Of a DNA stretch of 64,000 nucleotides, positions 21,745 through 31,540 are shown piece by piece (position 1 is the first letter of the stretch; each line of letters opens with the position of its first letter). A program made the translations under genes and the position numbers. Below the pieces are notes generated by a model. The model was given only the letters and a program-made list of their open reading frames with translations. It ran no database searches and was not told where the DNA came from. The stretch is from Paenibacillus alginolyticus DSM 5050 = NBRC 15375 (lineage in GTDB: Bacteria > Bacillota > Bacilli > Paenibacillales > NBRC-103111): positions 1-64,000 of the forward strand of contig NZ_AUGY01000037.1 in NCBI RefSeq assembly GCF_000422905.1, written 5' to 3'.

Positions 21745-21777
21745 AAAACAAACCCCAATAAAGGAGTGCATAGGATC

Positions 21778-23055
21778 ATGAGCAAACAAAGTCAAAGCGA
21801 ACAATTGCAAGCAAGCTGGAATTCCAAGCGATTCGAAGGGGTATTTCGGCCATATTCGGTTGAGGATGTGCTTCGCCTTCGCGGCTCCGTCATGATTAAA
21901 CAGACACTAGCGGAGCAAGGAGCTCGCAAATTCTGGGAGCGGGTTAACGAAGAGGACTTTGTGCCTGCACTTGGCGCTCTAACGGGAAATCAAGCCGTGC
22001 AGCAAGCAAAAGCAGGACTTAAAGCGATTTATTTGAGCGGTTGGCAAGTTGCCGCCGATGCGAACTTATCCGGTCATATGTATCCCGATCAAAGTCTTTA
22101 TCCAGCTAACAGCGTACCTAGCGTTGTGAAAAGAATTAATCAAGCGCTGCAGCGCGCCGATCAGATTCAGCATGCGGAAGGCAAGGGGAATATAGACTTC
22201 TTTCTCCCTATTGTGGCAGACGCAGAAGCTGGCTTCGGTGGACCGCTTAACGTGTTCGAGCTGATGAAGGGCATGATTGAGGCGGGAGCCGCTGCAGTCC
22301 ATTTCGAGGATCAGCTCTCCTCTGAGAAGAAATGCGGCCATTTGGGCGGCAAAGTGCTCCTGCCAACTCAGCAAGCTGTAAAAAATCTTATCTCAGCAAG
22401 GCTGGCAGCTGATGTGATGGGCGTAGAGACTGTTCTAATCGCCCGGACAGATGCGAATGCAGCAAGTCTTCTGACGAGCGATATTGATGAGAATGATCGA
22501 CCGTTTCTGACTGGGGAACGTTCACCCGAAGGATTCTTTTATGTACATGCAGGCTTGGATCAAGCGATCTCACGCGGTCTGGCTTATGCGCCTTATGCGG
22601 ATATGGTTTGGTGTGAAACATCGGAGCCCAACCTGGAGGAGGCAAGACGCTTTGCTGAAGCAATTCACGAGAAATTCCCAGGGAAGCTGCTCGCGTATAA
22701 CTGCTCTCCTTCATTTAATTGGAAGAAGAAATTAGATGAGCCTACGATTGCAAAATTTCAACAAGAGCTAGGCAAGATGGGGTATAAGTTCCAGTTCGTG
22801 ACGTTGGCAGGCTTCCATGCGCTGAATCATAGCATGTTTGAACTCGCTCACGATTATAGAGATCGTGGTATGGCTGCCTACTCTCAGTTCCAACAAACGG
22901 AATTCGCTAGTGAAGCTCGCGGCTATGAAGCGACACGCCATCAGCGTGAAGTAGGAACAGGCTATTTCGACGAAGTTTCCCAAGTGATAACGAGCGGCAC
23001 TTCTTCCACAACGGCGCTTTCCGGTTCAACGGAAGAGGAGCAATTTGCCCATTAA
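21778..23055 (+). CDS. aceA: Isocitrate lyase
   Basis: 425 residues from ATG 21778 (AAAGGAGTG upstream). It splits isocitrate into succinate and glyoxylate, the first step of the glyoxylate shunt that allows growth on acetate or fatty acids. The catalytic loop [11 protein letters not shown] is intact with its Cys, as are the metal-site region [28 protein letters not shown] and [18 protein letters not shown], and the C-terminal [12 protein letters not shown]. The length matches prokaryotic isocitrate lyases. It is followed directly by malate synthase, completing the shunt. Control by the palindrome at 21518 is inferred. Confidence 0.97.
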
Positions 23056-23089
23056 TAGCAATCCCATTAGGTCTAAGGAGATGAGGGTA

Positions 23090-24685
23090 TTGATCGATCA
23101 AACCATGCTCAGGGGAATTGAAATCGAGCCGACTTCCGCAGAGGGGCAGAAGATTCTCACACCGGAAGCATTAGCCTTCGTGGCGCAGCTTGAGCGTAAA
23201 TTTGGAGCAGCACGCCTTGAGCTGCTGCAGCAGCGCAACCAGAGGCAGAGTCGTATCGATGCAGGCGAGCTGCCGGACTTTTTACCAGTCACAGCAAGGA
23301 TACGCAGCAGTGATTGGACCATAGCGCCAATCCCTGCGGATTTACAAGACCGGCGCGTCGAGATAACAGGTCCAGCTGGCGACCGGAAGATGGTCATTAA
23401 CGCATTCAATTCGGGTGCTTACATCTATATGGCAGACTTCGAGGACGCTAACTCGCCCACTTGGAACAATACGATCGATGGTCAAGTGAATTTGTACGAT
23501 GCTGTTCGTCGAACAATCTCATTCACTAGTCCGGAAGGGAAGAGCTACAACCTTCAAGCTCAGACGGCAGTGCTCAAAGTTCGTCCTCGCGGTTGGCACT
23601 TGGAAGAGAAACATATGCAGGTTGATGGGCACTCTGTTTCAGGTTCGTTATTTGATTTTGGCCTATTCTTTTTCCATCATGCAAAGACACAGATTCAGCA
23701 AGGAAGCGGGCCTTATTTTTACTTGCCTAAGCTTGAGAGCCATATCGAGGCGCGTCTTTGGAATGAGGTGTTCCTATTTGCTCAGCAGGAGCTTGGCATT
23801 CCGCAAGGTACGATTAAAGCTACGGTGCTCATTGAGACGATCGTCGCTGCCTTTGAAATGGACGAAATTTTGTATGAACTTCGCGAGCACAGCGCAGGCT
23901 TGAACTGCGGACGGTGGGATTATATTTTCAGTTATATTAAAAAGCTGCAGAAGCAGCCGCACATCATCGTACCCGACCGTGCCCTCGTAACGATGGAATC
24001 GCCGTTCATGAAAGCTTATTCGCTGCTTGCCATCCAGACTTGTCATAAGCGGAGTGCACCTTGCATCGGAGGCATGGCTGCCCAAATTCCGGTGAGGCAT
24101 GATCCTGTGGCAAACGAAGAAGCCATGGCGAAAGTAAGAGCTGATAAACTGCGCGAGGTGAGAAATGGTCACGATGGCACATGGGTGGCTCATCCCGGAT
24201 TAGTTCCTGTGGCAAAAGCGATTTTCGATGAGCATATGCCTTCAGCAAATCAAATTGACAAGCAGCTATCTGGCGTCGAAATAACCGCTGAGCAATTGCT
24301 AGAGGTGCCGTTGGGGCCGATAACAGAGAATGGGATTCGGACGAATGTCAGCGTCGGCATTCAGTATTTGGAAGCCTGGCTACGTGGTTTCGGGGCTGTT
24401 CCGATCAACAACTTGATGGAAGACGTGGCTACAGCCGAAATATCTCGTGCGCAGCTTTGGCAGTGGATCCATCATCCACTAGGCATTTTGAATGACGGGC
24501 GTAAAATAACGGCCGAACTATTTAGTCAGATTCAAGTTGAAGAATTGGCTAAGATCAAAGAAAAGCTTGGGGAAGAGGCCTACCAGCAAATGAAGTTTGA
24601 CCAAGCGAATGCGCTTTTTACCCAGATGACGGTTTCACCTGAATTTGAAGCTTTCTTAACCGAACAAGGGTATCGATATTTGTAA
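23090..24685 (+). CDS. aceB: Malate synthase A
   Basis: About 531 residues from TTG 23090, nine bases after AAGGAG; the ATG at 23081 is too close to that site. The enzyme condenses glyoxylate with acetyl-CoA to malate. The family signatures are visible: [67 protein letters not shown] and [14 protein letters not shown]. The size and motif set are those of the A form (about 530 residues), not the larger G form. It lies 34 bp after aceA in the same operon and ends before the hairpin at 24708. Confidence 0.97.
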
Positions 24686-24707
24686 TTGAATACGTTGTTA
24701 ATTAACA

Positions 24708-24741
24708 TAAAGGCGTGCCGTCCTAACCGGTGCGTCTTTTA
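24708..24741 (+). terminator. Terminator after aceB
   Basis: AAAGGCGTGCCG and CGGTGCGTCTTT pair with G-U wobbles around a short loop, followed by T residues. Confidence 0.6.
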
Positions 24742-24817
24742 CTGTGTCCTTCTTGTTTTCCAATAACATATTGCCTATGCGGGTCATTGTCCTTAGAGGA
24801 AGCCTCTGTCGCCTGTT

Positions 24818-24846
24818 TTTAAAAATTACTATGGTTCTGTTATGAT
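24818..24846 (+). promoter_or_regulatory. Probable promoter of the two-component operon
   Basis: TTTAAA (24818-24823), 17-bp spacer, TATGAT (24841-24846), 33 bp before the start of the response regulator gene. Confidence 0.45.
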
Positions 24847-24878
24847 GAAAGTATTAACTGCGCCAGAGGTGGATAAAG

Positions 24879-25565
24879 TTGAAAATACTAATTGTGGAAG
24901 ACGACCTTCCGCTGCTTGAGGCGATTAAGGAAATATTCGAAAATGAGTCGTTCGACACGACGGGGACATCGACGGGAGATGAAGGGTACTTCTTAGCGGA
25001 GCAAGGAAGCTACGACCTTATTCTTCTTGACGTGATGCTTCCTGGCATGAACGGTCTAGAGATTGTTAAGCGTTTGCGAGCCCATCAAGTTTCAACACCG
25101 ATCATTATGTTGACTGCCAAAGACAGCGTCGAGGACTGCGTGAAGGGACTGGATGCCGGGGCAGACGATTATGTGACGAAACCATTTGCCGTTACTGTAC
25201 TGCTCGCTAGAGTAAGATCCGTATTAAGAAGGCGCGGGAGCGTTGACCTAGATGGGAAAATATCTTGCGGCCCCATTCAACTGGTATCCAGCTTAAGAGA
25301 TGCTTATGTTGACGAACAACCTTTGAAATTAAGTCCAAAGGAATATGAGTTATTAGAATTTTTCCTGTGCAACAAGGAACAAATTCTATCTAGGGATCAG
25401 ATCTTTGAACGGATATGGGGATTTGATTCGGAATCTGCTTCAACTGCGGTTGATGTATATGTTCACCTTCTGCGCAAAAAGCTTGCGCCGTATGGAGGGG
25501 ACCTCTATTTAAAGACAATTCGCGGAGTAGGGTATTTATTTAAAGGAGATTCCAATGTTCAATAA
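24879..25565 (+). CDS. OmpR/PhoB-type response regulator
   Basis: 228 residues from TTG 24879 (AGAGGTGG upstream). The receiver domain has VEDDLPLLEA, the phosphorylation site LLDVMLPGMNG (Asp about 51), TAKDS and the conserved Lys in DDYVTKPFAV. The C-terminal winged helix (about 130-225) has LSPKEYELLEFFL, VDVYVHLLRKKL and the end hairpin IRGVGYLFK. It overlaps the kinase gene by 11 bases, so the two are coupled. The flavin-transfer genes that follow are the likely targets: 11-bp-spaced TTTAA repeats lie just upstream of their -10 box. Confidence 0.93.
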   Translation: MKILIVEDDLPLLEAIKEIFENESFDTTGTSTGDEGYFLAEQGSYDLILLDVMLPGMNGLEIVKRLRAHQVSTPIIMLTAKDSVEDCVKGLDAGADDYVTKPFAVTVLLARVRSVLRRRGSVDLDGKISCGPIQLVSSLRDAYVDEQPLKLSPKEYELLEFFLCNKEQILSRDQIFERIWGFDSESASTAVDVYVHLLRKKLAPYGGDLYLKTIRGVGYLFKGDSNVQ

Positions 25566-26814
25566 AACTCGCGCTCAATTGGTGATATTAAATTCTGCCG
25601 TGCTTGTGTTGATTTTGCTTGTATCCGGATTCATCTTGTATTCTCATTTATCCTACCGCTTATTTCATCAAGTTGATGAGGCGATAGTGAATATTACTAG
25701 AGCTATGCAGGCAAGCTCAATCGATCAAATGCTGCAAGCCGATCATCCGGAGCCTGACCCCGACCGAAGGACCTCCTATTTTTTCTGGGACGATCAAGGG
25801 AAATTAATCAATCAATATCCGAAGCAATTGTTCTCTCTGGATGACGCTGCGCGGTTCAAACGTGTTGGCGACAGTGGGAATTTGCAAAATGTGTCTATAG
25901 GCGGACGAGAATATCGGGTGTTGGGGTTCCGTAACCCAATGAACAAGACATTTGATTCACCGTCATTACCCCATTCTTCTTATGTAGTCGTCGTTAGAAG
26001 CCTAGAAGCTGAGAATAAAGTGCTTCAGACTCTTCGTACGGATATTTCCATGGCTAGCGTAATAGGTGTACTTTTCTCAATAATGGCCGGCTTCTACTTA
26101 GCAGGCCGTTCGCTTGTGCCGATTCGGAAGTCGTGGGACAAACAACAACAGTTCGTTGCGGACGCCTCGCATGAACTGCGCACACCAACAGCGGTTATCC
26201 AGACTCGTGCTGAGCTTTTGTTTCGGCATCCCCAGCATACGATCGAGCAGGAGAGTCAGAACATTGCCCTCATTTTGAAGGAAAGTAAACGAATGGGGAA
26301 GTTGATCGACGATCTGCTGACACTGGCACGAACGGATTCCAATCAACTGCAAATTAATGCCGCGACGATACCGCTGGACCCGATTCTTCAAGACCTCGCC
26401 GAACAATTTGAGCTGCTGGCGGAAACCAAATCCATTCGCATTCATTCGCATTTCCAGCCTTCCGTGATATTAGGGGATGAAAGCCGCCTTCGGCAATTGT
26501 TTATCATTTTATTGGATAATGCGCTAAAGTTTACCCCGCCTCACGGATCTATTGAATTTACTTGTCACAGCTTACCGAATGCCATACGGGTTATTGTGAA
26601 AGACAGCGGTTGCGGAATTGCAGAAGCTGATCTTCCTCATATATTCGAGCGGTTTTATAGAGGGGATAAGTCCCGTTCACGTACCGAAGGCGGTACAGGT
26701 CTCGGACTTTCTATCGCTGAATGGATCGTGCACGCCCATAAGGGCAGTATTCGCGTCACATCCCGGATTGCCATAGGGACCGAATTTCAGATCAGTTTTC
26801 CAAAGAAAAATTAG
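25555..26814 (+). CDS. Membrane sensor histidine kinase
   Basis: 419 residues. The N-terminal helix is at about 9-30, an extracytoplasmic sensor of about 130 residues follows, then a second helix (about 162-183). The dimerisation domain holds FVADASHELRTPTAV (His about 206). The catalytic domain has the N box LLDNALKFTPPHG, DSGCGIAEADLP, the F box IFERFYRGDKSRS and GGTGLGLSIAEWIV. It is a typical OmpR-partner kinase without a HAMP domain that I can see. ATG 25555 follows AAAGGAGATTCC. The signal is unknown; redox state is a natural guess because of the next three genes. Confidence 0.93.
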   Translation: MFNKTRAQLVILNSAVLVLILLVSGFILYSHLSYRLFHQVDEAIVNITRAMQASSIDQMLQADHPEPDPDRRTSYFFWDDQGKLINQYPKQLFSLDDAARFKRVGDSGNLQNVSIGGREYRVLGFRNPMNKTFDSPSLPHSSYVVVVRSLEAENKVLQTLRTDISMASVIGVLFSIMAGFYLAGRSLVPIRKSWDKQQQFVADASHELRTPTAVIQTRAELLFRHPQHTIEQESQNIALILKESKRMGKLIDDLLTLARTDSNQLQINAATIPLDPILQDLAEQFELLAETKSIRIHSHFQPSVILGDESRLRQLFIILLDNALKFTPPHGSIEFTCHSLPNAIRVIVKDSGCGIAEADLPHIFERFYRGDKSRSRTEGGTGLGLSIAEWIVHAHKGSIRVTSRIAIGTEFQISFPKKN

Positions 26815-26833
26815 ACAGCAATTCATACATGAG

Positions 26834-26867
26834 TTTTAAGGAAATTTAAATGTTTGCTCCTTATAAT
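26834..26867 (+). promoter_or_regulatory. Promoter with 11-bp direct repeats, OmpR-type site candidate
   Basis: TTTTAAG (26834) and TTTAAAT (26845) are similar heptamers exactly 11 bp apart and 10 bp before TATAAT (26862-26867). There is no good -35 box. This layout is usual for promoters activated by OmpR/PhoB-type regulators, such as the one at 24879. Confidence 0.5.
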
Positions 26868-26904
26868 GAAACTATCGACGAAGCATTATAAGGGAGGGAT
26901 TCAC

Positions 26905-27327
26905 ATGGCAAAAATAAACAAAAAGTGGGTCGCTCTATGTTCAACAGCCATTGGAGCTATTTATGCCGCTGGATATTTCGCAACGGAGACTCAGGCAACG
27001 ATACAGCAGCCACAACAACAAGTCCAAGTTACACAGACTAAAAGCACTCAAACAAATAGACTTTATAAAGAGGGTACTTATACGGGGTCAGGAAGTAATC
27101 GACGTGGATCGATTCAAGTGGCAGTCACGATTAAAAGCGATAAAATTACAGATGTTGAAATCAGTCATTTTGCCATGCATTATACAATTGATGATGTTGT
27201 AGGGCTGCCCCAAGAAGTGTTACAAAAACAAAGCGCGCAAGTACGTAATGTATCGGGCGCAACGTATAGTACACAAGCCTTTAAAGATGCCGTACAAGAT
27301 GCGCTTTCACAAGCGCGAAACGCATAA
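26905..27327 (+). CDS. FMN-binding domain protein, membrane-anchored and extracytoplasmic
   Basis: 140 residues from ATG 26905 (AAGGGAGGG upstream). A single N-terminal membrane or signal segment (about 8-25) and a Gln/Thr-rich linker lead to an FMN_bind domain (about 55-138). This has GTYTGSG, IKSDKITDVEISH and the flavin attachment motif VSGATYSTQAF, in which the Thr is the residue normally linked to FMN. The flavin would be attached by ApbE, encoded by the next gene, whose ATG overlaps this stop by one base. The protein should carry electrons on the outer face of the membrane. Donor and acceptor are unknown. Confidence 0.87.
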   Translation: MAKINKKWVALCSTAIGAIYAAGYFATETQATIQQPQQQVQVTQTKSTQTNRLYKEGTYTGSGSNRRGSIQVAVTIKSDKITDVEISHFAMHYTIDDVVGLPQEVLQKQSAQVRNVSGATYSTQAFKDAVQDALSQARNA

Positions 27328-28232
27328 TGGGCAAAATCATGAAAAAAATGAAATTATTTATGGACACCGTTGTAGATATACAGGTTGTCACACGGAAATC
27401 AAATGATCAGACAGAAGCAGCCATTGATCGGGCTTTCGAAGCCTTTCGGAAAGTCGAACATGCCTGCAGCCGTTTCAGTCAGGACAGTGAATTGATGGAG
27501 GCATGCCGACAAATCAAGACGCCAGTACAGATTAGTCCGTTTTTATTTGAGCCATTGAAGTTTGCTTTGGAAGTGGCGAAATGGACGGATGGCATATTCG
27601 ATCCCACGGTGGGAAAAGCAATGGAAGATATGGGATTCAATCAGCACTATTTAACAGAGGAGACCGTCCAAAGCTCTTCATCGGATGCCGCTACCTACCG
27701 GGATATCATCTTAAATGAACAGGATCGTACGCTGTATTTGCGGAAGCCGCTGGTGATTGATTTAGGTGCTGTGGCTAAGGGATTCGCTATCGACTTGGCC
27801 GCGCACGAGTTGAACGAATTTGAAGGATTCGTCGTCAATGCCGGCGGTGACCTCTATGCTGGAGGCGTAGATGAAAACGGCAGCAAGTGGAGGATTGGCA
27901 TTCAGCATCCCGAAAACAAAGAAGAAATGATACAAACGCTAGAAATATCGAATGAGGCGGTCTGTACCTCTGGAAGTTACGAGCGCAAGAGTGCATTAAA
28001 AGCCGGCATGCATCATATCATCAACCCTATATCGAAACAATCATCGGACGAATGGATCAGCTGCAGTGTTGTCGCCCCTTACGCGATGATGGCGGACGCT
28101 TTCTCGACGGCCACCTTCTTATTGGGTTTGGAGCACGGGGGAACGTTACTAGAACAAGCTGACCTCAAGGGAATTTTGATTGCTTCCGATTTACAAATAT
28201 ATCAAATTGGAGGGATATCAATTGACAGCTAA
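27327..28232 (+). CDS. apbE: FAD:protein FMN transferase
   Basis: 301 residues. ApbE transfers FMN from FAD to a Thr of extracytoplasmic flavoproteins. Signatures: FMDTVVDIQV at the N-terminus, the early RFSQDSELMEACR, GAVAKGFAIDLAA, VNAGGDLYAGG, HHIINPISKQ and the Mg/FAD-site region MMADAFSTATFLLG. Most ApbE proteins are exported, but no clear signal peptide or lipobox is seen here (MGKIMKKMKLFMDTVV), so it may act in the cytoplasm or use an unusual route. The substrate is almost certainly the SGAT protein just upstream. Confidence 0.9.
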   Translation: MGKIMKKMKLFMDTVVDIQVVTRKSNDQTEAAIDRAFEAFRKVEHACSRFSQDSELMEACRQIKTPVQISPFLFEPLKFALEVAKWTDGIFDPTVGKAMEDMGFNQHYLTEETVQSSSSDAATYRDIILNEQDRTLYLRKPLVIDLGAVAKGFAIDLAAHELNEFEGFVVNAGGDLYAGGVDENGSKWRIGIQHPENKEEMIQTLEISNEAVCTSGSYERKSALKAGMHHIINPISKQSSDEWISCSVVAPYAMMADAFSTATFLLGLEHGGTLLEQADLKGILIASDLQIYQIGGISIDS

Positions 28233-29031
28233 CCAATGGATGAAAACACCAAAAGGATATGTCGCAGTTTCCATGGTTTTCTTTCTACTCATAGCCTCCA
28301 TCTGGTCTCAAGATATTAGCGGCATTTATAATGGACTTATAGCCGTCGGTGTTTCCTCTGCCGCGGATATGATTTGTTCCCGAATTGCCAAAAGGAAGCG
28401 AATGTTGCCGGATGGTGCAGTGATAACAGGGTTAATTATTGCGTTAATCCTAGGCACAACTTCCCCATGGTATATGGTTGCTGGCACTTCCATCATAGCT
28501 ATTTTGTCTAAACATTTGCTTGTTTATAAGAAAAAACCGATCTTTAATCCAGCAGCCTTCGGACTGCTTCTGTCGATCCTTTTCTTTCGATCCGGACAAA
28601 GCTGGTGGGGCGCATTCGGGGATCTTCCCACATGGTCAGTCGTGTTTCTATTAATTGGCGGATACATGGTAACGAACCGAGTGAATAAATTTCCTCAAGT
28701 TTTTTCATTTCTAGGGACTTATTTCATCTTATTATTGATTATGGGGATTTTAAATGTCGGAGATGCCACTGATGCACTTCGATCACCTTTTATTAATGCT
28801 TCCCTTTTCTTTGCCCTTTTTATGCTTACAGATCCTCCTACTTCACCAGCTAAGGTTAAGGATCAAGTCATTTTTGGCATCCTTAGCGCGGTCGTTGGTG
28901 CAGTTATATATGGCATTTTTGGCGGTTTGATGTACTTATTTATTGGTTTGCTTGTCGGGAACCTATATCACATCCTTGTACCGAAGTTTAGGAACGCCGC
29001 TATTATTAAGCCTGTTTCTCAGTCTCGTTAG
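28222..29031 (+). CDS. RnfD/NqrB-like membrane protein of flavin electron transfer
   Basis: About 269 residues from TTG 28222, placed by GGAGGGATATCA and overlapping the apbE end by 11 bp. Eight or more hydrophobic helices are predicted. The conserved loops PDGAVITGLIIAL, KKPIFNPAAFGLL and FINASLFFALFMLTDPPTSP match the RnfD/NqrB family. It is shorter than classical NqrB or RnfD, and I do not see the DGYSGAT flavinylation loop those carry. None of the other Rnf or Nqr subunits is encoded nearby. The likely role is to move electrons across the membrane to the flavinylated FMN_bind protein. Confidence 0.83.
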   Translation: MTANQWMKTPKGYVAVSMVFFLLIASIWSQDISGIYNGLIAVGVSSAADMICSRIAKRKRMLPDGAVITGLIIALILGTTSPWYMVAGTSIIAILSKHLLVYKKKPIFNPAAFGLLLSILFFRSGQSWWGAFGDLPTWSVVFLLIGGYMVTNRVNKFPQVFSFLGTYFILLLIMGILNVGDATDALRSPFINASLFFALFMLTDPPTSPAKVKDQVIFGILSAVVGAVIYGIFGGLMYLFIGLLVGNLYHILVPKFRNAAIIKPVSQSR

Positions 29032-29064
29032 TCGTAATGGTGGAGCATTATTTCATCTTAAAAT

Positions 29065-29098
29065 GCAGGGCCCTACTAAGGGCTTCTGTCTTTTTTTA
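29065..29098 (+). terminator. Terminator after the flavin module
   Basis: GCAGGGCCCT and AGGGCTTCTG pair with one mismatch around ACTA, followed by TCTTTTTTT. Confidence 0.75.
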
Positions 29099-29154
29099 TT
29101 TGAATATACTATAATTATTTCAATGTTATAGAACAGTTCAGCGAGGTGTGAACC

Positions 29155-30483
29155 ATGAGCACGGGCCATTCGGAGCTTCATACGAAGCATGAACAAATTA
29201 CGAAATATATTGAATCTTTGGCTGTAGGCACCAAGCTGTCCGTTCGGCAAATTGCTCAAGATCTAGATGTGAGTGAGGGAACGGCTTATCGTGCCATCAA
29301 AGAAGCGGAAAATATCGGTCTAGTGAGCACCAAACGGCGGATCGGTACAATCCGCATGGAAAAGAAAGAAGAACCCGTTATTGATAAATTAACGTTCGCG
29401 GAAATCGTCAATGTGGTGGAAGGCGTTGTGCTGGGTGGTTCTTCGGGCATACATAAGTCTTTGAACAAATTCGTGATTGGCGCGATGCAGCTGGAGGCCA
29501 TGCTAAAGTATATTGAAGCTGGCAATCTGCTCATTGTCGGCAATCGTGTACAAGCACACATGTGTGCACTAAGTCAGGGCGCTGGCGTATTGATTACCGG
29601 TGGTTTTGATACCACGCCTGAAGTGAAGGAGCTTGCAGATGAACTGCAGCTGCCTATTATCGGCAGTTCATTCGATACATTCACGGTAGCCACAATGATT
29701 AACCGTGCCATGGAAGATCGGCTTATTAAGAAAAAGATTATGATCGTCGATGACATCGTGCGCAAAGACAGTCCTATTTATTCACTGCTCGCTTCTAATA
29801 CGGTCAAAGAGATGCAAAAGCTGGTTGAGGAAACGACGCATACACGTTATCCTGTCATCGATGACCAACAGGTGCCGATTGGCATGATCACGACAAAGGA
29901 CATCATGGGCGCGAAGCCGAATCAGCTCATTGGCACCTTGATGACTCCTAATCCGTTGATGATTAACTTGAAAACGTCGGTAGCATCAGCCGGACATACG
30001 ATGGTGTGGGAAGGTATTGAACTGCTGCCCGTGATAGATACCGATCGCAAGATGATCGGTGTCATTAGCCGTAAGGATGTTATGAAAGCGATGCAGCACA
30101 TGCAAAGGCAGCCACAGAACGCAGAAACGTTCGAGGTGCAGATCTATTCGGGGATCGACGAGCTGCGGGATGAGGAAGGCAAGCTGTATTTCCAAGGAAC
30201 GGTTACGCCGCAAATGACGAACTTTGAAGGTTTAGTCTCTGAGGGTGTACTGACAACGATTATGATTCGAGCCGCTTACCGTACGGTTCAGGAACACAAG
30301 AAAGGCGATCTCATTCTGGATAGTTCTTCCAGCTATTTTCTAATCCCGCTGCAAATCGATGATGTCATCGAAATTGTACCTTCGATCGTAGAGATGAGCC
30401 GCAGATTTTGTAAGATTGATATGGAAATCAGGACGAATGGCACTAGAGTAGCTAGATCCATGTTTACGGCACGTATCCTATAA
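29155..30483 (+). CDS. ytoI: CBS/DRTGG/hotdog-domain regulator, YtoI-like
   Basis: 442 residues. Order: N-terminal helix-turn-helix (about 18-60; LSVRQIAQDLDVSEGTAYRA), DRTGG domain (about 75-190; VEGVVLGGSSGIHKSLNKF and GVLITGGFDTTPEV), a CBS pair (about 195-310; RYPVIDDQQVPIGMI and ELLPVIDTDRKMIGVI) and a C-terminal hotdog fold (about 325-440). This is the composition of Bacillus YtoI, whose function is not established. CBS pairs usually bind adenine nucleotides or S-adenosylmethionine, so it may be an energy- or nucleotide-sensing DNA-binding protein. ATG 29155 follows GCGAGGTG. It stands alone between two terminators. Confidence 0.85.
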   Translation: MSTGHSELHTKHEQITKYIESLAVGTKLSVRQIAQDLDVSEGTAYRAIKEAENIGLVSTKRRIGTIRMEKKEEPVIDKLTFAEIVNVVEGVVLGGSSGIHKSLNKFVIGAMQLEAMLKYIEAGNLLIVGNRVQAHMCALSQGAGVLITGGFDTTPEVKELADELQLPIIGSSFDTFTVATMINRAMEDRLIKKKIMIVDDIVRKDSPIYSLLASNTVKEMQKLVEETTHTRYPVIDDQQVPIGMITTKDIMGAKPNQLIGTLMTPNPLMINLKTSVASAGHTMVWEGIELLPVIDTDRKMIGVISRKDVMKAMQHMQRQPQNAETFEVQIYSGIDELRDEEGKLYFQGTVTPQMTNFEGLVSEGVLTTIMIRAAYRTVQEHKKGDLILDSSSSYFLIPLQIDDVIEIVPSIVEMSRRFCKIDMEIRTNGTRVARSMFTARIL

Positions 30484-30495
30484 TAGTTTATGAAG

Positions 30496-30525
30496 AATAG
30501 CCATCTATTGAGGTGGCTATTTTTG
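30496..30525 (+). terminator. Terminator after the CBS/DRTGG gene
   Basis: AATAGCCATC and GGTGGCTATT pair with one wobble around TATTGA, then TTTTG. Confidence 0.7.
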
Positions 30526-30638
30526 TTTTGTGGAAGCATAAGTTTGCATAGAAATTGATATGTATTATTTATCAAATAACGAAGTGCGAGCTGATTATCT
30601 TGGTTTACGGAATAAAATGGGGGAGGAGTCACAGCCAA

Positions 30639-31540
30639 TGAATGCATGGATCTTTTACTTAATGCTAGCTTTAGCGCCTTGGGGAATTGTGGGGAATCAG
30701 GATGATCAGCTCAATCAAGTTTGCTCCAGCACAAATGAAAGCGCAATCATTAAACCGGCAGTGGATACGAAGGTTATTCATTATATGAATCAAGCTATTT
30801 TTCTTACCTATCACCATCTGAATGAAAACGAGTCATTTGTGACGATTACCCCGGCTAAATTTAATCAGCACCTCCAGGTTTTAAAAGAAAACCATTATAA
30901 TGTGATTCCGATTGAAGATTATAGCTGTTTTGTTGAGCATCGAAAATCTATCCCCCCGAATGCTGTCGTGATTACATTCGATGATGGCTATCGATCTTTT
31001 TATGAGAAGGCATATCCTTTATTGAAAAAGCAAGGTTTCCCGGCAACTAACTTTGTTGTCTTAAGTTACCTGGATTCTGATTATCCCTCGCTACCCTTTC
31101 TTACATGGAAGCAAACGCAGGAGATGAAAAGCGATGGATTCAGTTTCTATTCGCACACGTTTAACCTTCATCAAAAAAAGAAGGGAGACGCCGTAAATGC
31201 CGTACCTGCTATGACGAATCGCCTATACCTTGAACAGGAAAAGCGGTTGGAGACAGAAGAGGAATGGAGAAAAAGAGTCCGTGAGGATCTTTGGTTGGGC
31301 GAAGCCATGTTGAAAACGCAGCTGGACAATAAGCTTTCCATGCTGTGCTTCCCTTTTGGAGAGTACAATCAGACCGTTATGGATGATGCGAAGGAACTAG
31401 GATTCCGTTATTTTATCACGACGAAGGAAGGGATTAATTCGGGGGACAGCAGAGAAATAAATCGGTTGAATGTTGGCATGCCTTATTTATCCGCGGATAA
31501 CTTTCTGAAAAAGCTGCAAAGCTATGATCGTAAAAAGTGA
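30639..31540 (+). CDS. Secreted polysaccharide deacetylase (NodB/CE4 family)
   Basis: 300 residues from ATG 30639, behind GGGGGAGGAG. The signal peptide is MNAWIFYLMLALAPWGIVG. The NodB domain has motif 1 TFDDGYRSFYEKAYPLL (catalytic and metal Asp pair) and motif 2 FYSHTFNLH, where the family has HxxxH metal ligands, both intact. Later KTQLDNKLSMLCFPFGEYN resembles motif 3. Family members remove N- or O-acetyl groups from peptidoglycan, chitin or biofilm glycans. The domain arrangement (N-terminal 'HHL...' lead-in and the deacetylase near the C-terminus) resembles extracellular biofilm-type (IcaB/PgaB-like) enzymes, but the substrate is not assignable. Confidence 0.86.

Follow-up and report, generated by a model that had tools for sequence, protein, structure and literature searches.

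The subject of this study is a group of three genes in Paenibacillus alginolyticus DSM 5050, lying within a stretch of 64,000 nucleotides (contig NZ_AUGY01000037.1, positions 1 to 64,000; hereafter the window). They encode a protein with a domain binding flavin mononucleotide (FMN), called here the FMN_bind protein, an ApbE flavin transferase, and a membrane protein resembling RnfD and NqrB (the RnfD-like protein). I will refer to the three as the trio. They may act as a wire carrying electrons between membrane and cell exterior, and the reading I favor, at somewhat better than even chances, is that they and the two-component system encoded just upstream constitute a sensor-switched, two-flavin relay across the membrane, a relative of the NQR/RNF-like systems that does without their nicotinamide adenine dinucleotide (NAD) domain.

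According to this reading, the sensor kinase and its regulator would activate a single promoter from which the trio is made. ApbE, lacking an export signal, would attach FMN in the cytosol to Thr120 of the FMN_bind protein before the latter is threaded out, and the FMN_bind protein would remain tethered by its N-terminal helix. The RnfD-like protein would carry one non-covalent flavin in its riboflavin site and, because its own covalent FMN and the linker belonging to it are gone, it is probably the FMN of the FMN_bind protein that reaches into the vacated place. The most likely source of electrons would be menaquinol, which would deliver them to the cytoplasmic rim of the RnfD-like protein, and they would exit through the outer FMN to an external acceptor. 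If this is true, soil Bacilli gain a minimal transmembrane route for electrons, made of three genes and one promoter and easily moved into a laboratory strain.

Gene layout and the three proteins

The features of the locus are listed below. The five genes that a first-pass annotation had placed here were all found, with Pfam matches that exceed the family cut-offs, and all lie on the + strand, those for the response regulator and the RnfD-like protein beginning with TTG.

24879..25565, + strand: OmpR/PhoB-type response regulator, 228 amino acids, TTG start (Pfam Response_reg 1.2e-30, Trans_reg_C 2.9e-24)
25555..26814, + strand: sensor histidine kinase, 419 amino acids (Pfam HisKA 6.7e-16, HATPase_c 5.7e-29)
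26835..26849, + strand: operator-like direct repeat TTTAAGGAAATTTAA at the -35 position (pattern in the promoters of relatives)
26862..26867, + strand: -10 box TATAAT, 12 bp downstream of the repeat (from the sequence)
26905..27327, + strand: FMN_bind protein, predicted to be membrane-anchored, 140 amino acids, with an N-terminal helix flanked by KK, a Q/T-rich linker and the FMN_bind domain (Pfam FMN_bind 1.6e-11; flank charges; PDB relative 8p2a, E 2e-4)
27262..27264, + strand: codon of Thr120, the Thr expected to be linked to FMN, in R-N-V-S-G-A-T (motif and position)
27327..28232, + strand: ApbE flavin transferase without signal peptide, 301 amino acids (Pfam ApbE 1.7e-61; alignment to PDB 7esa)
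28222..29031, + strand: RnfD/NqrB-like membrane protein, 269 amino acids, TTG start preceded by GGAGGG, short linker with SWWG between the halves, NAD domain absent (Pfam NQR2_RnfD_RnfE 7e-21; AlphaFold; fold search)
29068..29085, + strand: terminator-like stem-loop and T run after the RnfD-like gene (pattern scan)

The genes had been described as having overlapping starts and stops. Three pairs do overlap (response regulator/histidine kinase, FMN_bind/ApbE and ApbE/RnfD-like), but the histidine kinase and FMN_bind genes are separated by 90 bp that contain the operator-like repeat and TATAAT, so transcription of all five as a single unit need not be assumed. Since the trio has promoter-like elements of its own and a terminator-like stem downstream (weak taken alone: the pattern scan found 4, with 4.2 expected in shuffles), it is likely a single unit with its own promoter, behind the regulator pair.

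To compare the proteins with their relatives, a scan of GTDB species was used, which gave 215 related stretches; the best 80 of these were fetched and are the 80 loci counted below. Aligned FMN_bind proteins have a conserved K-rich N-terminus, a single helix (17-residue hydropathy at least 1.28), a variable linker and then the domain. The flank on the N-terminal side of the helix has a mean charge of +2.7 and that on the C-terminal side -1.1, and the former is the more positive in all 69 proteins tested. For this reason the helix should be an N-in membrane anchor with the domain outside the cytosol, in line with the earlier description of the protein as exported; the calls of export and anchoring, for this protein and for ApbE, are made from hydropathy and charge only. 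The linkers of several relatives are of low complexity and resemble tethers that span the cell wall. Of 78 FMN_bind proteins, 77 contain SGAT or TGAT.

The ApbE protein presents S215, H230 and D257 (Ser-His-Asp), along with R220, at positions that align in PDB 7esa with the catalytic Ser, His and Asp and the Arg named for FmnB (PMC12052999). From the residue numbering I infer that 7esa, the best PDB match, is FmnB of Listeria. What the first-pass annotation passed over is that ApbE seems to be on the unexpected side of the membrane. Its Pfam domain starts at residue 12, the core being reached within about 12 residues, and 53 of the 66 relatives with a clear core start have fewer than 17 residues before the core. 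The remaining 13 have no 17-residue window above a mean hydropathy of 0.36, and 12 of these 13 longer frames extend back into the FMN_bind gene by 40-109 bases. The N-terminal signal or lipobox of the secreted type of ApbE is not recognisable in the P. alginolyticus protein or in the 66 relatives, as judged by hydropathy. The count of 66 omits L132, L095, L105, L117 and L156, four of which are also poorly filled in the tree. An apparent fusion of FMN_bind and ApbE in L132 was an artefact, the alignment having crossed a stop codon, and the same fault seems to affect L095, L105 and L117.

In Listeria the corresponding enzyme, FmnB, acts outside the cell and needs an exporter of flavin adenine dinucleotide (FAD) with EetB, family PF07456 (PMC9973259). 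No match to PF07456 was found in the genome of P. alginolyticus, by a search whose control matched 2 of 14. Because ApbE is without a signal, its target has an N-in anchor, and the known FAD-export family is absent, the evidence suggests that FMN is added in the cytosol before the domain is exported. The combination of a signal-less ApbE with an anchored target makes the addition of covalent flavin before export a testable general question. A plasmid cluster of Mesorhizobium has a similar pairing, an ApbE starting at its core and an anchored FMN_bind protein, and the RnfD-like protein there carries an NAD domain. A long open reading frame in cluster L244 matches that fused Mesorhizobium protein at 32.8%, with no Pfam family at 0.01. 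I hold only tentatively, as something that may well fail, the broader proposal that such a loaded domain is exported with no need of a FAD exporter, that this quinol-fed wire of two flavins and two membrane proteins is the smallest such relay, and that the arrangement is common to NQR/RNF-like systems of several phyla.

The same lack of a recognisable signal in the 66 ApbE relatives could be taken to mean that the FMN_bind domain is itself cytosolic, alongside ApbE, and that nothing crosses the membrane; according to a review, Klebsiella has an ApbE that is cytosolic, as is its target. I consider this quite unlikely, given the positive N-flank in 69 of 69 FMN_bind proteins and the tether-like linkers. 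In addition, cluster L244 sets an ApbE without apparent signal beside an FMN_bind-like protein with a lipobox-like start, although the domain of the latter is below the Pfam cut-off and has no SGAT.

The RnfD-like protein gave an AlphaFold model (from 60 sequences) with a predicted local distance difference test score (pLDDT) of 83.9 and a predicted template modeling score of 0.83. A fold search matched it over nearly the whole chain to RnfD (8rbq_D, Z 25.0) and NqrB (8a1x_B, Z 22.9), with unrelated folds, ammonium and urea channels, at Z 13.1 or lower, and the model thus confidently predicts an RnfD/NqrB fold. By profile alignment, N109 and D204 correspond to N124 and D248 of Clostridium RnfD, which are named around riboflavin and Na+ (PMC9588780). 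In NqrB the riboflavin is held by the side chains of T162, N200, N203 and D346 (PMC10643135, PMC9325719). Three of the four riboflavin-site positions are kept: among 60 aligned RnfD-like proteins, N109 and D204 are each found in 60 and T69 in 59 (T69, like P106 discussed below, was equated with its NqrB position by motif and not by a computed NqrB alignment).

The linker between the halves of the protein, where in RnfD the covalent FMN is held by Thr153 (PMC9588780), has 25 profile positions as compared to 59 residues in RnfD, and contains an invariant S-W-W-G. None of the 60 aligned proteins has the covalent-FMN Thr motif in the linker, and [ST]GA[ST] occurs in one of them (L159), outside it. 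The impression recorded in the first-pass annotation, that the protein lacks a flavinylation loop of its own, is therefore borne out. From the residues kept and those missing, the protein is expected to bind one non-covalent flavin, in the RnfD/NqrB riboflavin site.

A fused NAD domain was considered and rejected: PF03116 is the sole Pfam family over its cut-off, and since all 80 proteins are of 252-286 residues, none has room for one. This leaves the question of what feeds the relay. Quinone binds near riboflavin in NqrB, and because the trio has neither an NAD domain nor an RnfC or NqrA alongside, a quinone at the rim of the RnfD-like protein offers the simplest partner; by analogy, the electron donor may be menaquinol. 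In the main rival explanation, the relay would instead be fed by a soluble cytosolic flavoprotein of NAD(P)H or ferredoxin type, in place of the fused domain. Splitting of fused domains is common, PF00175 is on the same chain in the described relatives and in Mesorhizobium P0003, and an aldo/keto reductase gene (not of a flavoprotein family) is found in 6 of the 80 stretches, mostly kilobases off. I regard this source as doubtful, since no reductase with a flavin or NAD domain was recognised beside the trio in the 22 commonest gene clusters of the 80 stretches, only some of which were scanned with Pfam.

Regulators and operator

The two-component system is of the OmpR type, with a receiver and winged-helix regulator and a HisKA/HATPase kinase (Pfam), and the sensor region of the kinase, judged by eye from the sequence, lies between two N-terminal hydrophobic segments. 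In 56 of the 80 loci the trio is accompanied by a linked regulator pair, which in 47 is of the type found in the window and in 9 of another type. When on the strand of the trio, the window-type pair is upstream in 9 loci and downstream in 13; when on the opposite strand, it is upstream in 20 and downstream in 5. The other type is upstream in its 9 loci.

The operators were compared in 72 upstream stretches, that of the window included: the window-type pair accompanies 48 of them and the other type 9, and 15 have no pair. A first repeat (at most 3 mismatches of 15) is present in 44 of the 48, none of the 9 and 13 of the 15; a second (at most 5 mismatches of 20) is present in none of the 48, all of the 9 and none of the 15. 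The first repeat stays in the promoter of the trio wherever the regulator lies, and its best match in the window-type group has 0.88 mismatches on average, compared with 4.59 for shuffles. The type of operator follows the type of regulator, although only one or two evolutionary switches lie behind this association. It is this pairing that speaks for the sensor control proposed by the first-pass annotation, and the sensor pair probably switches on the trio; the three nearest relatives, considered with other contrary points in the next section, do not fit the proposal. The matching exchange of regulator and operator between loci offers a way to get at the signal by which such systems are turned on.

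Six of the seven genomes with the other type have no window-type response regulator or histidine kinase at E <= 1e-60 (for the response regulator, 150 candidates were scored in most genomes). The seventh has a distant window-type pair (54% and 44%), and the same search recovered the pair of G041, whose regulator is of the window type. Within the 8.33 Mb of the P. alginolyticus genome, TTTAAGNAAATTTAA has a single exact match. A wider regulon was sought there and set aside, sites with at most 1 mismatch numbering 9, as compared to 10 for the reversed pattern.

One exact operator in the genome and a regulator linkage kept across four gene arrangements are also what might be seen if the trio had no respiratory role and instead served its own two-component system as a redox probe, informing it about the quinone pool or the envelope. 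I think this very unlikely: the trio persists in the three nearest relatives without the regulator pair, and three proteins with two flavins are much machinery for a sensor.

Distribution, neighboring genes and the path of electrons

The trio is complete in 74 of the 80 loci. ApbE is not in the stretch in L093, L102, L109, L110 and L163, nor FMN_bind in L102 and L161, partly owing to contig ends. The compact module seen at first pass is supported. The fetched loci come from Paenibacillus, Neobacillus, Cohnella, Bacillus, Gottfriedia, Priestia, Peribacillus and others, and the closest named relatives among them belong to Paenibacillus (88% for the RnfD-like protein of P. phytorum). At the level of the family, 37 strong matches (E <= 1e-50, own genome counted) were found in 36 of 104 genomes, far beyond chance; of the 392 genomes of the order, 78 have a match at E <= 0.001, more distant RnfD-like proteins being included. 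In a sample of the phylum the RnfD-like profile matches 186 of 398 genomes, strongly only the own genome and G618 (8e-97). Spread beyond Bacilli was rejected, the E values of the other matches being no better than 6e-14, which is what true RnfD proteins should give. A phage search gave no match and a plasmid search three distant ones.

The 8.33 Mb genome of P. alginolyticus (listed completeness 100%, contamination 6.19%) encodes a single PF03116 protein, a single FMN_bind protein and two ApbE proteins. The second ApbE-like gene (L036:3843-4754) lies near a gene for an HI0933-like flavoprotein. As the first-pass annotation had it, no further Rnf or Nqr subunit was found by Pfam among the nine genes scanned at 21766-31540 (RnfA/E and NqrD/E were not searched genome-wide). 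The upstream neighbors encode isocitrate lyase and malate synthase, and downstream is a gene for a CBS/HotDog regulator that resembles SpxR below the cut-off for that family.

Among the 80 stretches, recurring neighbors of redox or metal type are a membrane protein with H-x13-H (11), DUF2231 (7), VIT1 (5) and a rubrerythrin-like protein (5). Generic clusters are equally common: a solute-binding protein (7), an ABC-ATPase-like protein (7), an aldo/keto reductase (6) and two others of 5-6, all of which were set aside as unrelated. The H-x13-H protein has invariant pairs and weakly resembles cytochrome b561 or DUF4405, below their cut-offs; the two pairs were read from the alignment alone, the AlphaFold model (pLDDT 63.7) being too poor to search. 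The Mesorhizobium cluster has the same trio and a two-component system, with VIT1, cytochrome b561 and DUF2231, and VIT1 has been reported in six NQR/RNF-like clusters (PMC8238504). Because VIT1, cytochrome b-like and DUF2231 neighbors recur, and do so also in Mesorhizobium, they give no more than a hint of a role for iron, and my guess is that the external acceptor is iron-related. A homologue of the H-x13-H protein lies elsewhere in the genome of P. alginolyticus (L197:6127-8825), behind another two-component pair, and there is a suggestion that this cytochrome b-like protein travels with regulators.

The outward direction of flow, argued here by analogy, follows what has been proposed for NQR/RNF-like systems (PMC8238504, PMC11334425). 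Electrons could conceivably run inward, from an extracellular reductant to the outer FMN, the RnfD-like protein and menaquinone, as they run in NQR and RNF from the outer FMN via NqrB or RnfD to quinone or NAD; genes for rhodanese/metallo-beta-lactamase, DsrE-like and TauE proteins are found in about 4 of the 80 stretches each. That direction seems unlikely, in view of the preference of the same authors for outward flow and of the 80 stretches, in which no regularly linked enzyme that would generate a donor was seen.

Several observations weigh against an outward, sensor-switched relay. Regarding the switch, 24 of the 80 loci have no regulator of either type in the stretch (several stretches are incomplete), and the three nearest relatives (G039, G046 and G032) lack both window-type regulator genes and keep the trio, as well as the repeat upstream of FMN_bind (L086, L087 and L058, with 1, 0 and 0 mismatches). 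The match observed in the window-type group is reached by 109 of 1,920 shuffles. The Fisher probabilities for regulator type against repeat type (8e-8 and 1e-10) concern patterns chosen after seeing the same sequences, and a quick tree needs at most two switches of regulator type, possibly one. A scan for consensus sigma-70 promoters lists nothing at the promoter of the trio, which can be put down to its having no -35 consensus, as expected for a promoter that depends on an activator. Regarding the flavins, the SGAT site noted at first pass is present, with Thr120, but the Asp of D-x-x-[ST]-G-A-[ST] is Arg in the P. alginolyticus protein and is Asp in 12 of 77 relatives; a review calls this Asp strictly conserved and reports little effect in one protein when it is changed to Ala. 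The position of NqrB Asn200 is Pro (P106) in the RnfD-like protein and in 54 of the 60 aligned. The amphiphilic N-terminal helices of NqrB close on the quinone, and the model of the RnfD-like protein has about 9 residues before helix 1, which leaves little room for such helices. Finally, in NQR and RNF the corresponding half of the circuit carries electrons inward.

A few other arrangements were encountered. In Neobacillus pocheonensis the RnfD-like gene occurs three times (L109, L110 and L146); of these copies, L109 has FMN_bind with no ApbE between and L110 fragments of FMN_bind alone, without ApbE. Fragments of RnfD-like genes, apparently decayed copies, are found in G013, G014:C204, G030:C90, G050 and G068:C4. 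A different RnfD-like protein of about 260-280 amino acids is found in L046, L047, L048, L050 and L051, with no match there to the P. alginolyticus FMN_bind protein; in L046 one copy is preceded by a YqaJ-domain protein and another copy by an FG-GAP/UnbV_ASPIC protein. On a Metabacillus plasmid (L242:5159-6546) the RnfD-like gene follows a redoxin (AhpC/TSA), with no FMN_bind or ApbE listed in the stretch, possibly another use of a lone RnfD fold. Just before the module in Paenibacillus aestuarii (L097:579-2565), a second ApbE lies between a small, exported-looking protein and a membrane protein with no Pfam family at 0.01.

Comparison with known systems

The NQR/RNF-like systems (PMC8238504, PMC11334425) share with the locus described here an FMN_bind subunit, an NqrB/RnfD membrane domain without a flavinylation site, ApbE and, in some clusters, VIT1. 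As in those systems, the FMN_bind protein here has an export or anchor segment and the PF03116 protein has no flavinylation site of its own; the RnfD-like protein matches the fused Mesorhizobium example at 32% over 217 residues, the short WW linker included. The chains described, however, carry a cytosolic NAD domain (PF00175), found in none of the 80 Bacillota loci, and they are placed primarily in Actinobacteria and the candidate phyla radiation (PMC8238504), whereas the trio is in Bacilli. The dedicated operator, the sensor pair and the signal-less ApbE are not mentioned for them in the accessible text. Because the NAD domain that defines these systems was looked for and is absent, the trio is, judging from sequence, a stripped-down relative of them and not a member.

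With RNF (RnfD, RnfG) the trio shares the RnfD fold, the Asn and Asp of the riboflavin site and an FMN_bind partner with one N-terminal helix. It differs in that RnfA, B, C, E and G partners are absent among the nine genes scanned (which was not a genome-wide search) and in that the covalent-FMN linker and Thr of RnfD are missing from the RnfD-like protein. With Na+-NQR (NqrB, NqrC) the trio has in common the fold and the Thr, Asn and Asp positions of the riboflavin site; it lacks the N-terminal helices of the quinone site, the site for covalent FMN and, in the neighborhood, the partner subunits. The flavin-based extracellular electron transfer of Listeria (PplA, FmnB, EetB/FmnA; PMC9973259) resembles the trio in belonging to a Gram-positive organism and in combining an extracytosolic carrier, expected here to be flavinylated, with the ApbE family, but there FmnB is outside and FAD export is needed, whereas here ApbE is signal-less and PF07456 is absent from the genome.

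A form without the NAD domain and with a two-component system was not recognised in the literature searched, which covered few subscription papers and no supplements. What is new, so far as the comparison of sequences goes, is a promoter repeat tied to regulator type, a signal-less ApbE together with an anchored target, and an RnfD-like protein with neither a covalent-flavin site nor a cytosolic domain.

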